IMG/VR virus record: IMGVR_UViG_3300025286_000163
Coordinates: 1-21,973 of that record
Origin: a virus
Length of the DNA stretch: 21,973 nt
Direction: 5' to 3' (one strand)
Shown here: positions 5,081 through 11,242 of the stretch, in pieces
How positions within the stretch are numbered: position 1 is the stretch's first letter
Layout: each line of letters begins with the position of its first letter
The notes under the pieces: model-generated
Databases searched by the model: none
Told to the model about the DNA's origin: nothing
Seen by the model: the letters and a program-made list of their open reading frames with translations, nothing else
Program-made: the position numbers and the translations under genes

Positions 5081-5161
5081 ATGTTTGCGCGTTTAGGAAC
5101 GGCTCGTTTTGAGCCGGGGGAAATAACTCCCCCGGTTTCATTAGGGGAGAAAAAAAGATGA
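5081..5161 (+). CDS. Small ORF / leader peptide (26 aa) before the membrane protein
   Basis: ATG at 5081 follows CCGAGGAG at good spacing and opens a 26-codon frame (begins MFARLGTARF, ends GEKKR) whose TGA overlaps the next gene's ATG (ATGA). Both a good ribosome site and the exact coupling suggest that it is translated. The coding region contains two overlapping hairpins, so its translation could control expression of the downstream genes. No homologue is recognised; it may also have no function of its own. Confidence 0.5.
   Translation: MFARLGTARFEPGEITPPVSLGEKKR
5100..5135 (+). promoter_or_regulatory. Two mutually exclusive hairpins (attenuator-like) in the leader ORF
   Basis: Hairpin 1 is CGGCTC (5100-5105), loop gtttt, GAGCCG (5111-5116). 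Hairpin 2 is CCGGGGGA (5114-5121), loop aataac, TCCCCCGG (5128-5135), followed by TTTCATT. They share 5114-5116 and cannot form together. Hairpin 2 resembles a terminator with a poor U-tract. A translating ribosome on the 26-codon ORF would disrupt both. Confidence 0.4.
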
Positions 5162-5568
5162 AACTTTTAGGATTAATGGTGTTTTTAGCAGGTATGGTCA
5201 TGGTTGCCAGTGGTTTAGTGTTTATAGACCTGGCATCAATGGTGCTCAAGGGCGACCTCTACACACTCAGCGTGTTAGGGTTCTTTAATAACATGTTCTC
5301 ACTGAACCCGTCAACGGCTACCGTACAAACGGTACTCAGCGGGTTGTTTATACTGATGGGGTGCTTTATTTGTTTTGGCGGGGCGGTCATGATACGAGTT
5401 AAAAGAATTGGGGGAACGATTGATCCCGACCTCATACCGAACTACGAGAGAGTCGGTAAGGGTAGGGTGTTCGGTAATTTCATCGCGTTTCCCACCCAGA
5501 TGGCGCGAGCGACTTACAATAAAGCAGTGAAGTTGGGTATTGTGAATGGCAAGGTATGGAAAAATTAA
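5158..5568 (+). CDS. Hypothetical inner-membrane protein, two predicted transmembrane segments
   Basis: Protein of 136 residues, not recognised. It opens with a hydrophobic segment (about residues 3-25, LGLMVFLAGMVMVASGLVFI), has a second (about 58-80, VLSGLFILMGCFICFGGAVM), and then a basic, soluble C-terminal region of about 55 residues. The topology is probably two membrane helices with the tail in the cytoplasm. Its start overlaps the 26-codon ORF by four bases and its stop overlaps the methyltransferase start by 13 bases. It might be a superinfection or host-interaction factor; nothing in the sequence decides this. Confidence 0.72.
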   Translation: MKLLGLMVFLAGMVMVASGLVFIDLASMVLKGDLYTLSVLGFFNNMFSLNPSTATVQTVLSGLFILMGCFICFGGAVMIRVKRIGGTIDPDLIPNYERVGKGRVFGNFIAFPTQMARATYNKAVKLGIVNGKVWKN

Positions 5569-6815
5569 GAACATTGGACTTATTCAGCGGGATAGGAGGG
5601 TTCACCCTTGGTCTAGACTCAACGGGCTACTTTGAAACGGTGGCTTTTTGTGAGATCGAGGCGTTTCCGTGTAAGGTATTAAATAAACATTGGCCGGAAG
5701 TGCCGATATATAACGACGTAAAGGAGTTAAGTTATGAAAAATTACAGGCAGACGGAATTATTTCAAGACGACGAGGCATTGACGTTATCTGTGGAGGATA
5801 CCCGTGTCAGCCGTTTTCAGTTGCAGGACGTCAAGGAGGCGAAGACGATCCAAGACATCTCTGGCCGGAATATTTTAGACTCGTTAGAGAATTGCGTCCG
5901 CATTACGCGATTGGAGAGAACGTGGGCGGACATCTTCGACTCGGTTTGGATACCGTACTCGAAGACCTGGACAGTGAGAACTACACCGTCAGGTGCTTTA
6001 GTGTTGAAGCATCGAGCCTCGGTGCCCCGCACCGACGTGAAAGAATCTTCTGGATCGCAGACAATATGGCCGACCGTCACCCAGGATTCGGCGAGCTCAC
6101 GGACGAAGAAATACAAACAGGGCGGTACGCCCTTAACGGTAGCGGTGCAACCCCTATGGCTGACTCCGTCAGCGACGAACATCGATTCGAGATCGGAGAA
6201 AGCTCTGGAGTATCGGAAAGCCTATCGAGAAAGCATCGGCAGGAAAACAGTGCCTCCGGGGAACCTATCGGAACAGGTGCAATACGGCGAACCGACAACG
6301 GACATGAAACTGATGTTCCCGACACCCAGAGCGAGCGACGTGGAGGGCGGAATCGTGGAGGACGTGGAGCTGAACAACGGGAGCTTCTCAAGACGGAACA
6401 AGAAGGGCGAGCGTTGGGGCGTGAAGCTGAGAGATGCAGCGAACTATCTGGAACAGAATATGTTCCCGACACCCACAGCGAGGGATTGGAAGGGGCCGAG
6501 AAAGCCCGAAACTCTGAAGAAGAACGGACGCTTGCCGAGCAATTCACTGCCCGACAAGGTGCGAAGCGAAGTGAAGAAGAGCGACGAAAAACTACATTTG
6601 AATCCTACCTGGGTGGAGGGAATGATGGGATTTCCGCATGGCTGGACGGATCTTGGGAACGAGGAATCCCTAGAGTAGCGCCGAGTAATAAATTGCGAGT
6701 GCCTCGATTAAAAGCCTTGGGAAATGCGGTGCTTCCGCAGTTGGTTTATATGGTGGGCATGACGATTGTTTTGTCTACAAATAGTAGTGAGAATGAGGAA
6801 GAATCGGGTGGTTAA
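5556..6815 (+). CDS. DNA (cytosine-5)-methyltransferase
   Basis: Methylates cytosine at C5 in a specific site using S-adenosylmethionine, probably protecting phage DNA from host restriction; no partner endonuclease is seen. It has 419 residues. Motif I is DLFSGIGGF (8-16), motif IV GGYPCQPFSVAG (80-91) with catalytic C84, motif VI ENV (121-123), motif VIII GAPHRRERIFWIA (156-168) and a late IX/X-type motif VPRLKALGNAVLPQL (about 382-396). All core motifs are present, so it looks active. The target-recognition region (about 170-375) is unusually charged and low in complexity, rich in Arg, Glu and Gly. That stretch coincides with a second gene in another frame (5734-6678), which probably explains its composition. 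The start overlaps the previous gene and has AAGG upstream. Confidence 0.92.
   Translation: MEKLRTLDLFSGIGGFTLGLDSTGYFETVAFCEIEAFPCKVLNKHWPEVPIYNDVKELSYEKLQADGIISRRRGIDVICGGYPCQPFSVAGRQGGEDDPRHLWPEYFRLVRELRPHYAIGENVGGHLRLGLDTVLEDLDSENYTVRCFSVEASSLGAPHRRERIFWIADNMADRHPGFGELTDEEIQTGRYALNGSGATPMADSVSDEHRFEIGESSGVSESLSRKHRQENSASGEPIGTGAIRRTDNGHETDVPDTQSERRGGRNRGGRGAEQRELLKTEQEGRALGREAERCSELSGTEYVPDTHSEGLEGAEKARNSEEERTLAEQFTARQGAKRSEEERRKTTFESYLGGGNDGISAWLDGSWERGIPRVAPSNKLRVPRLKALGNAVLPQLVYMVGMTIVLSTNSSENEEESGG
5734..6678 (+). CDS. Nested gene inside the methyltransferase, +1 frame; PTPxASD / NPxWVExMMGFP protein
   Basis: A 314-codon frame lying entirely inside the methyltransferase gene on the same strand. 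It has its own strong ribosome site, AAGGAG (5721-5726), seven bases before ATG 5734. Four copies of a short motif are visible: IWPTVTQDSAS (residue 111), LWLTPSATN (141), MFPTPRASD (194), MFPTPTARDWKGP (243), and a C-terminal LNPTWVEGMMGFPHGWTDLG. The stretch TWTVRTTPSGALVLKHRAS..PRTD is also familiar. From memory, unchecked, this combination occurs in phage proteins annotated next to cytosine methylases, some of which may be separate genes. No enzymatic function is known to me. The alternative is a chance ORF forced by conserved methylase codons, but the ribosome site and motifs argue against that. Confidence 0.65.
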   Translation: MKNYRQTELFQDDEALTLSVEDTRVSRFQLQDVKEAKTIQDISGRNILDSLENCVRITRLERTWADIFDSVWIPYSKTWTVRTTPSGALVLKHRASVPRTDVKESSGSQTIWPTVTQDSASSRTKKYKQGGTPLTVAVQPLWLTPSATNIDSRSEKALEYRKAYRESIGRKTVPPGNLSEQVQYGEPTTDMKLMFPTPRASDVEGGIVEDVELNNGSFSRRNKKGERWGVKLRDAANYLEQNMFPTPTARDWKGPRKPETLKKNGRLPSNSLPDKVRSEVKKSDEKLHLNPTWVEGMMGFPHGWTDLGNEESLE

Positions 6816-6841
6816 AATAGGGTCAAAATGGGGCAAAACAC

Positions 6842-7006
6842 ATGGTATGGCTACTTTGCGTGACTCGTACCATGTGCCTCTGAAACCCCTATATAATAAG
6901 GAAAGTATACATGGTACGGGGGTATGATTGTACTATGCCATACCACCGTACTGCCACCTCTACAGCCCCCGTGGAATATAGATGGTACGGCGGTACGGTG
7001 GTACGC
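6842..7006. repeat. GGTACGG repeat cluster and inverted repeat: candidate packaging (cos/pac) or TerS-binding site
   Basis: The 305-base gap before the small terminase has no convincing gene. It holds iterated GGTACGG-like words on both strands: ATGGTATGG (6842), TACCATG (6868-6874), ATGGTACGG (6911), and ATGGTACGG/CGGTACGG/GGTACG (6982-7005). Positions 6938-6955 and 6989-7006 form an 18-bp imperfect inverted repeat (15 matches) around a 33-base spacer. Small terminases bind repeated sites near their own gene, so a packaging site is plausible. An 11-nt box (CTACTTTGCGT, 6851-6861) and a 16-nt box (CTCTGAAACCCCTATA, 6878-6893) recur before the large terminase. A short hairpin (CTCTCCTaaAGGAGAG) follows at 7006-7022. 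Confidence 0.5.
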
Positions 7007-7120
7007 TCTCCTAAAGGAGAGAGGAAAGAGTTGTATAACACAATCTCCCCTCTACCGCTCTGCCTTGGACAGCGTTAAAAAAAAGAAGGAGATACGAAAA
7101 GTATAATGGAAGGAGAGTTA

Positions 7121-10570: not shown

Positions 10571-10595
10571 CAAAAGAAAACATCAGCTGATGTTT
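10571..10595 (-). terminator. Candidate terminator overlapping the DUF7227-like gene's stop codon
   Basis: A perfect 18-bp palindrome (10578-10595, AAACATCAG/CTGATGTTT) is followed on the minus strand by a T-rich stretch. The TGA of the gene ending at 10583 lies inside it, so translation would reach into the hairpin. The stem is short once a loop is allowed, so efficiency is uncertain. Confidence 0.5.
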
Positions 10596-11242
10596 CCCTT
10601 GCCGGTCCCATGAGCTGGAAAGCCCACCATATTGGACCGCCCGGCATGTTGGCACAGCTGGCAGCTTTTACAGGTCACATTATCCTGGTAAGTGGCCGGG
10701 CAAATATTAACCTTGTTGCCGGCTTTCGTGGTGATCGTGTGATTGTATGCTTGATCCGCCGGGACAATCACCACCACCGGGCCAATTCCCAGGGCTTTGA
10801 GTTCGTCCGCATGGTCCAGACTGTCAGCTGAAAGGTTCACGGTAAACCCGTTATCGTTGGCGTGTTTAATCTTGGCGTGGTTCTTTTTGATTTTGTGCTT
10901 ATGAGTATAAGTAAAGCCGCGTTTGTTTTTGTTAGCATTTACCAGGCTTTTAAGCTTCCGCCCGTCGATCCAGTCGCCTGATCCGGCCAGGTCACCGGCT
11001 TGATTGTGACGCCAAAAAGTCCCGGCTGCCATTGTTTCCACTTCCTGGATAAATTGCTTGAAGCTCTCGCCCCGGAGCTTTTCAGATACTTTTTTCCAAT
11101 GCATGGCCAAGTGGCCATGTTTGGCGTAACAGGTCCCGTCATTCAATGGACAGCTGGGCGGGCAGCTTTTGTCTTCAGTAGTGGATACCGGGATAGGCCC
11201 GGTTTTAGGATTCGATGATTTTTTAGTCAAGTGAGTGTGCAT
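10583..11242 (-). CDS. DUF7227/gp88-like cysteine-rich phage protein
   Basis: Protein of 219 residues. It begins MHTHLTKKSSNPKTGPIPVSTT and has a cysteine cluster CPPSCPLNDGTCYA (C27, C31, C38). It ends with a second cluster ICPATYQDNVTCKSCQLC (C181, C191, C194, C197). The middle is alternating helical and strand-like, with FTVNLSADS and GPVVVIVP. The N-terminal GPIPVSTT..CPPSCP pattern matches, from memory, phage proteins of the DUF7227/Gp88 type, whose role is unknown; the cysteines probably bind metal or an Fe-S cluster. GGGGGTG precedes the ATG. It is downstream of the 69-residue gene in the same short unit. Confidence 0.75.
   Translation of the reverse strand: MHTHLTKKSSNPKTGPIPVSTTEDKSCPPSCPLNDGTCYAKHGHLAMHWKKVSEKLRGESFKQFIQEVETMAAGTFWRHNQAGDLAGSGDWIDGRKLKSLVNANKNKRGFTYTHKHKIKKNHAKIKHANDNGFTVNLSADSLDHADELKALGIGPVVVIVPADQAYNHTITTKAGNKVNICPATYQDNVTCKSCQLCQHAGRSNMVGFPAHGTGKGNIS

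Follow-up and report, generated by a model that had tools for sequence, protein, structure and literature searches.

A phage C5-cytosine DNA methyltransferase probably composed of two polypeptides encoded in overlapping frames

The window examined here (the whole stretch of DNA analysed, a virus record of 21,973 bases with primase/helicase, terminase and portal genes) carries a cytosine methyltransferase gene that holds a second long reading frame within it, which raises the question of whether the inner frame is a gene at all and, if so, what it has to do with the enzyme encoded around it. Judged from sequence, the nested +1 frame is a real gene, which supplies the half that the methylase lacks and is not an unrelated second gene. 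The locus very probably encodes a single C5-cytosine DNA methyltransferase in two chains, alpha from the outer frame and beta from the nested frame (Table 1).

The 314-codon +1 frame reported by the first-pass annotation, with its AAGGAG ribosome-binding site and 7-base spacer, was recovered as described; it starts at an ATG and lies wholly inside alpha, so that all of its 945 bases are overlap. Recovered as well were the methylase motifs I, IV, VI and VIII and the late GNAV motif, all present in the outer frame, and the four PTPxASD-like units of the nested frame together with the motif that follows them. The surroundings of the gene show three further features. A small ORF of 136 aa with a hydrophobic start and no Pfam match (5158-5568) overlaps the start of alpha by 13 bases; the intergenic stretch that separates alpha from the gene of the terminase small subunit (6830-7010) contains repeated GGTACGG/CCATAC-like words, which may be regulatory; and a strong match to DUF7227 (2.1e-87) is found on the minus strand at 10583-11242.

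Table 1. Features of the methyltransferase locus, in window coordinates
Feature	Positions	Strand	Basis
Alpha subunit ORF (419 aa) with C5-methyltransferase motifs I-VIII and X and without motif IX	5556..6815	+	Pfam DNA_methylase; motif IX score equal to shuffled
Alpha motif I (DLFSGIGGF)	5577..5603	+	sequence
Ribosome-binding site of beta (AAGGAG), 7-base spacer to ATG 5734	5721..5726	+	sequence; enrichment in relatives
Beta subunit ORF, 314 aa, +1 frame within alpha: N-terminal domain, four TRD-like cassettes, motif IX	5734..6678	+	PHROG 1008 match; +1 in 248/248 analysed loci
Alpha motif IV with catalytic Cys (GGYPCQPFS)	5793..5819	+	sequence
Beta N-terminal domain, ~residues 40-100, overprinted on alpha motifs IV-VIII	5851..6033	+	pLDDT ~80; conservation excess z=27
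Alpha motif VI (GENVGG)	5913..5930	+	sequence
Alpha motif VIII (GAPHRRERIFWIA; includes GAPHRRER)	6021..6059	+	sequence
TRD-like cassette 1 (WPTVTQDSAS...)	6067..6159	+	83% identity with cassettes in L055 and L041, two divergent betas
Alpha bridge linking motifs VIII and X, mostly disordered by prediction, out-of-frame reading of the TRD cassettes	6081..6695	+	pLDDT; stop counts
TRD-like cassette 2 (LTPSATNIDS...)	6160..6315	+	sequence, cassette comparison
TRD-like cassette 3 (FPTPRASDVEGG...; unit FPTPRASDVE)	6316..6462	+	sequence, cassette comparison
TRD-like cassette 4 (FPTPTARDWKG...)	6463..6597	+	sequence, cassette comparison; type aligns with single-chain TRD element
Beta motif IX (LNPTWVEGMMGFPHGWTDL)	6598..6654	+	aligned by profile to canonical motif IX; window score of 18.6 on the matrix
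Alpha motif X (RVPRLKALGNAVLPQL; includes LKALGNAVLPQ)	6696..6743	+	sequence; confident helix in model

Division of the methyltransferase motifs between the two frames

Residues 5-208 of alpha match Pfam DNA_methylase (7.5e-38), the subunit matches PHROG 363 (labelled 'DNA methyltransferase', 9.8e-70), and its match to solved C5-methyltransferases such as M.HhaI is confined to residues 4-168. The predicted structure, which has M.HaeIII, the prophage enzyme 3g7u and M.HhaI among its best structural matches, shows residues 1-175 as a confident large domain and the motif X helix as the other confident element; between them, at residues ~176-389, pLDDT is mostly below 50. This predicted disordered bridge of ~210 residues occupies the place where the TRD would be expected. 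No motif IX was detected in the alphas, on which a matrix built from canonical motif IX sequences scored 6.6, against 6.9 on shuffled alphas.

The same matrix scored 19.2 on the betas as against 6.8 on their shuffled versions, with the best position falling on the LNPxW motif in 230/234 betas. In the window, LNPTWVEGMMGFPHGW of beta corresponds to LTPRECARLMGF of E. coli Dcm. The profile comparison of beta with six single-chain enzymes, Dcm included, gave a short match (E=5.8e-4, probability 29%), in which LNPxWVExLMGFP is paired with LTPRECxRLxGFP and, upstream of it, PTPTAxDxK with the TRD element TLxAxYxKDG. One beta, that of L219, matches the Dcm-type PHROG 116 across motifs IX-X (2.5e-5). 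In the single-chain enzymes that served as controls, motif IX is read in frame and the +1 frame has 8-25 stops. Of the elements of PF00145, the large-domain motifs I-VIII and the catalytic Cys are thus all found in alpha, and the TRD, motif IX and motif X are found only in the pair (TRD and IX in beta, X in alpha). The first-pass annotation had missed both the lack of motif IX in the methylase frame and the identity of the nested 'MGFP' motif as that very motif.

Upstream of the cassettes, beta has an N-terminal domain whose sole family match is PHROG 1008 (labelled 'DNA methyltransferase', 4.3e-28 for beta) and which is probably the part that docks onto alpha. Fold comparison of the weak beta model (mean pLDDT 64) with solved structures gave no structural match, and nothing useful came from searching PDB sequences, whether by the beta profile or by the L219 beta.

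The strongest sign that recognition resides in beta is the book-keeping of motif X: 224 loci have it in alpha, 2 have it in beta and no locus has it in both; in 22 it was not found (several of these being contig ends). The two exceptional loci (L219:2790-4089 and L186:2802-4116) have a beta holding both motifs IX and X, and an alpha that stops right after motif VIII. Alpha therefore seems to cross the TRD only to reach motif X, recognition being left to beta. Two further loci are apparently broken copies: stops interrupt alpha in L165:2110-3226, and in L244:2682-3691 a single indel shifts all frames, which is why the motif IX found there in the alpha frame was rejected as the mark of a fused enzyme.

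We also considered that beta might be a separate protein with a role of its own (a regulator or an anti-restriction factor, for example), merely overlapping a methylase active as a monomer. The N-terminal domain without assigned function is compatible with this, as is the extra C-terminal domain of some betas. A monomeric alpha would, however, have neither motif IX nor a folded TRD, both of which elements are in beta, and motif X moves between the two chains without ever being doubled; we consider a separate role for beta very unlikely. The extra domain lies after the alpha stop, contains ...HWFRKDxCFSYPSxxDW... and has no Pfam match (L011:2614-3063, with similar ends in L010, L015-L019, L026 and L031-L033); it is possibly DNA-binding.

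Constraint on both frames and breadth of the arrangement

Loci were collected in three ways: 1) from viral contigs with beta as the query; 2) from viral contigs with the N-terminal part of alpha alone; and 3) from bacterial genomes with the beta alignment. The frame relation was the same throughout, beta lying in the +1 frame of alpha in 248/248 analysed viral, plasmid and bacterial copies from 13 phyla. Beta-selected sets are biased towards open betas, and in the viral one beta was in +1 wherever alpha was found; the alpha-selected set is free of this bias and gave 80/80, these being the best 80 of 451 and hence close to the alpha type of the window. Plasmid and genome loci gave 85/85.

Stops in +1 were compared with permutations of synonymous alpha codons. 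In the window none is present, against a mean of ~6 under permutation; across the 70 usable loci from the best 80 of the 451 alpha-selected ones, counted from ~10 codons past the beta start to 25 codons before motif X, 6 were observed where 203 were expected. The +1 frame is fully open in 67 of these 70, and in the other three beta ends earlier. Conservation of the +1 frame (16 representatives below 65% identity) exceeds that of the permutations with z=27 across alpha motifs IV-VIII, as against -0.5 in the alpha-only part upstream. The +2 frame is also raised over motifs IV-VIII (z=13), as expected when synonymous sites are fixed. With beta held fixed in the TRD, the alphas of the representatives have 0 stops where 104 were expected, and their extra conservation is weaker (z=13.8); mean BLOSUM per column in this region is 1.57 for beta and 0.41 for alpha. 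Among the close relatives of the window, rough arithmetic puts alpha-silent divergence in the overlap at about half of that upstream. A ribosome-binding site of at least 5 bases with a start was found in 54% of representatives, against 18% in synonymous permutations, a good site not being present in every relative. In 26 loci beta runs 379 to 892 bases beyond the alpha stop and is therefore read as a protein in its own right. Every available computational test shows a real overlap with selection acting on both frames, in line with the first-pass annotation, to which both frames looked meaningful.

Programmed frameshifting could produce a single fused protein, if the ribosome moved into +1 downstream of motif VIII and returned ahead of motif X, and the motifs do indeed follow one another along the DNA as in a single-chain enzyme whose frame changes twice. 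The ribosome would nevertheless have to shift once in each direction, and neither the conservation of +1 for ~110 codons upstream of the TRD nor the start and ribosome site that beta has for itself would be needed, which makes frameshifting very unlikely beside two separately translated chains. Less likely still, and hardly credible after the stop and constraint tests, is the reading of the nested frame as a mere shadow of a conserved methylase with similar codon use: single-chain controls do have open +1 stretches of up to 167 codons and beta homologues occur exclusively as +1 partners of methylases, but the deficit of stops, the conservation excess found within the overlap and not upstream of it, the presence of motif IX in the beta frame only and the betas that outrun alpha all speak against it.

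Exclusive pairing with methylases was one of the signs by which the first-pass annotation would have recognised a shadow; the others, random stops in relatives and a lack of constraint beyond that of the methylase frame, were not observed, and obligate pairing is in any case what two subunits of one enzyme predict. The proposal that the second gene was born in, or shaped, the TRD of the methylase proved half right. Overprinting is likely only for the first ~110 residues of beta, which lie over alpha motifs IV-VIII. In the 3' half it is beta to which single-chain enzymes show homology, through their TRD and motif IX, and the methylase frame there is consequently the derived one, a disordered read-through.

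The phyla represented are Bacillota, Bacteroidota, Pseudomonadota, Desulfobacterota, Chlorobiota, Actinomycetota, Elusimicrobiota, Acidobacteriota, Verrucomicrobiota, Chloroflexota, Nitrospirota, Spirochaetota and Planctomycetota, as counted from record titles and a Leptospira plasmid, some entries being metagenome bins. The bacterial loci are probably mostly prophages. Genes that annotation presents as stand-alone betas (R9.1 and 'hypothetical proteins' encoded on Bacteroides plasmid DNA) were rejected as such, since all overlap an alpha in +1. A +1 ORF annotated 'DNA methyltransferase' in Streptococcus phage P0095 (L259:652-1071) lies inside an ordinary single-chain enzyme and is without motif IX; it may be an annotation artefact.

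A proposed two-chain enzyme with exchangeable recognition cassettes

In the DNA that encodes the enzyme proposed here, the single-chain order of motifs I-VIII, TRD, IX and X is preserved, but the reading passes into +1 downstream of motif VIII and returns ahead of motif X. Alpha must in consequence cross the TRD as a stop-free disordered bridge. Both chains would come from one message, beta being translated in the +1 frame from an internal start at its own ribosome site. Alpha would bind AdoMet and contribute the catalytic Cys (motifs I-VIII) and the motif X helix, beta would supply the small domain with its TRD cassettes and motif IX, and the two would dock as catalytic and recognition halves to give a complete, active heterodimer. 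Protection from restriction is the usual role of orphan phage methylases, and this enzyme would probably likewise protect the phage DNA from that of the host.

Betas carry 1-6 cassettes (90 representatives) of ~30-55 residues each. The window has four, which is why its enzyme would probably recognise several targets. Sharing of cassettes between otherwise dissimilar betas was measured directly: a cassette at 65% identity or more is common to 273/2,821 beta pairs whose N-terminal identity is below 50% (values under ~0.2, as for L218, may be understated through imperfect trimming), and in 202 of the 273 it stands at another position. The window itself provides an example, as its beta N-terminus is only 23-24% identical to those of L055 and L041 despite the close similarity of their cassettes to its first one. 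Cassettes thus appear to be exchangeable as units, and an exchange would change the sequence that is methylated.

We lean towards a wider reading, held less firmly than that of the two-chain enzyme itself: the C5-methyltransferases of phages and prophages would include a large class, spread over at least 13 bacterial phyla, with the DNA-recognition half in the +1 frame of the catalytic half; cassettes that are stop-free in both frames would be shuffled between viruses, so that a swap alters the specificity of one protein and, in the other, no more than a disordered bridge; and the docking domain of beta would be a new fold overprinted on catalytic motifs.

Relation to known methyltransferases

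Both frames are annotated in some records, such as those of Paenibacillus phages and phage K1G, under 'DNA methyltransferase' or 'hypothetical protein', and many records annotate the outer frame only; one half of these enzymes is therefore usually lost. The entries of PHROG 1008 and PHROG 363, to which beta and alpha belong, make no mention of an overlap or of the two as halves of a single enzyme. In the literature searched, mostly papers free of subscription, no account of the arrangement as general among phages was found. Should the split prove general, the outer gene cloned or annotated by itself would yield an enzyme without activity, a possible explanation of 'silent' phage methylases, and there would be here a natural case of DNA specificity exchanged in one protein while another must stay readable. 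We judge that bacteria and phages would also have here a long same-strand overlap of very wide conservation, in which both frames are kept for a clear reason. Targeted methylation has already made use of a naturally split methylase (PMC3439449).

The ShiLan type (PMC11855218) likewise has a protein hidden out of frame within a phage methylase gene, but there it is a mobile HNH endonuclease inserted in some genes, whereas the nested frame of the window is a constant half of the enzyme. An HNH or other hidden gene was rejected for the window, the nested frame having no domain match of that kind in Pfam, NCBIfam, PHROGs or PADLOC.

The phage C5-methyltransferases SPR, SP beta and phi3T (references in PMC8936443) recognise their targets through several domains placed one after another. 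The four TRD-like cassettes may be serial units of this sort, although SPR, SP beta and phi3T are single chains read in one frame and the multispecificity of the window enzyme is a prediction. In M.AquI (CYCGRG) two polypeptides do divide the motifs of one C5-methyltransferase, but the split falls inside the variable region, with motifs IX-X together in the second subunit; it is the variants L219 and L186 that resemble it.

The closest likeness is to M.EcoHK31I (YGGCCR), whose small subunit is reportedly encoded, like beta, in another frame inside the gene of the large one. As described for that enzyme (PMC3404938, on the work of Lee, Kam and Shaw 1995), the large subunit has motifs I-VIII and X and the small subunit motif IX, which is the motif split computed for the window; its predicted TRD is, however, placed in the large subunit, whereas that of the window is in the nested subunit, as four cassettes. 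The kind of enzyme is thus already known, a split C5-methyltransferase of the M.EcoHK31I kind, and unusual in form and breadth; what is new is that breadth, the assignment of the TRD to beta, and the shuffling of cassettes in DNA that is read in two frames.
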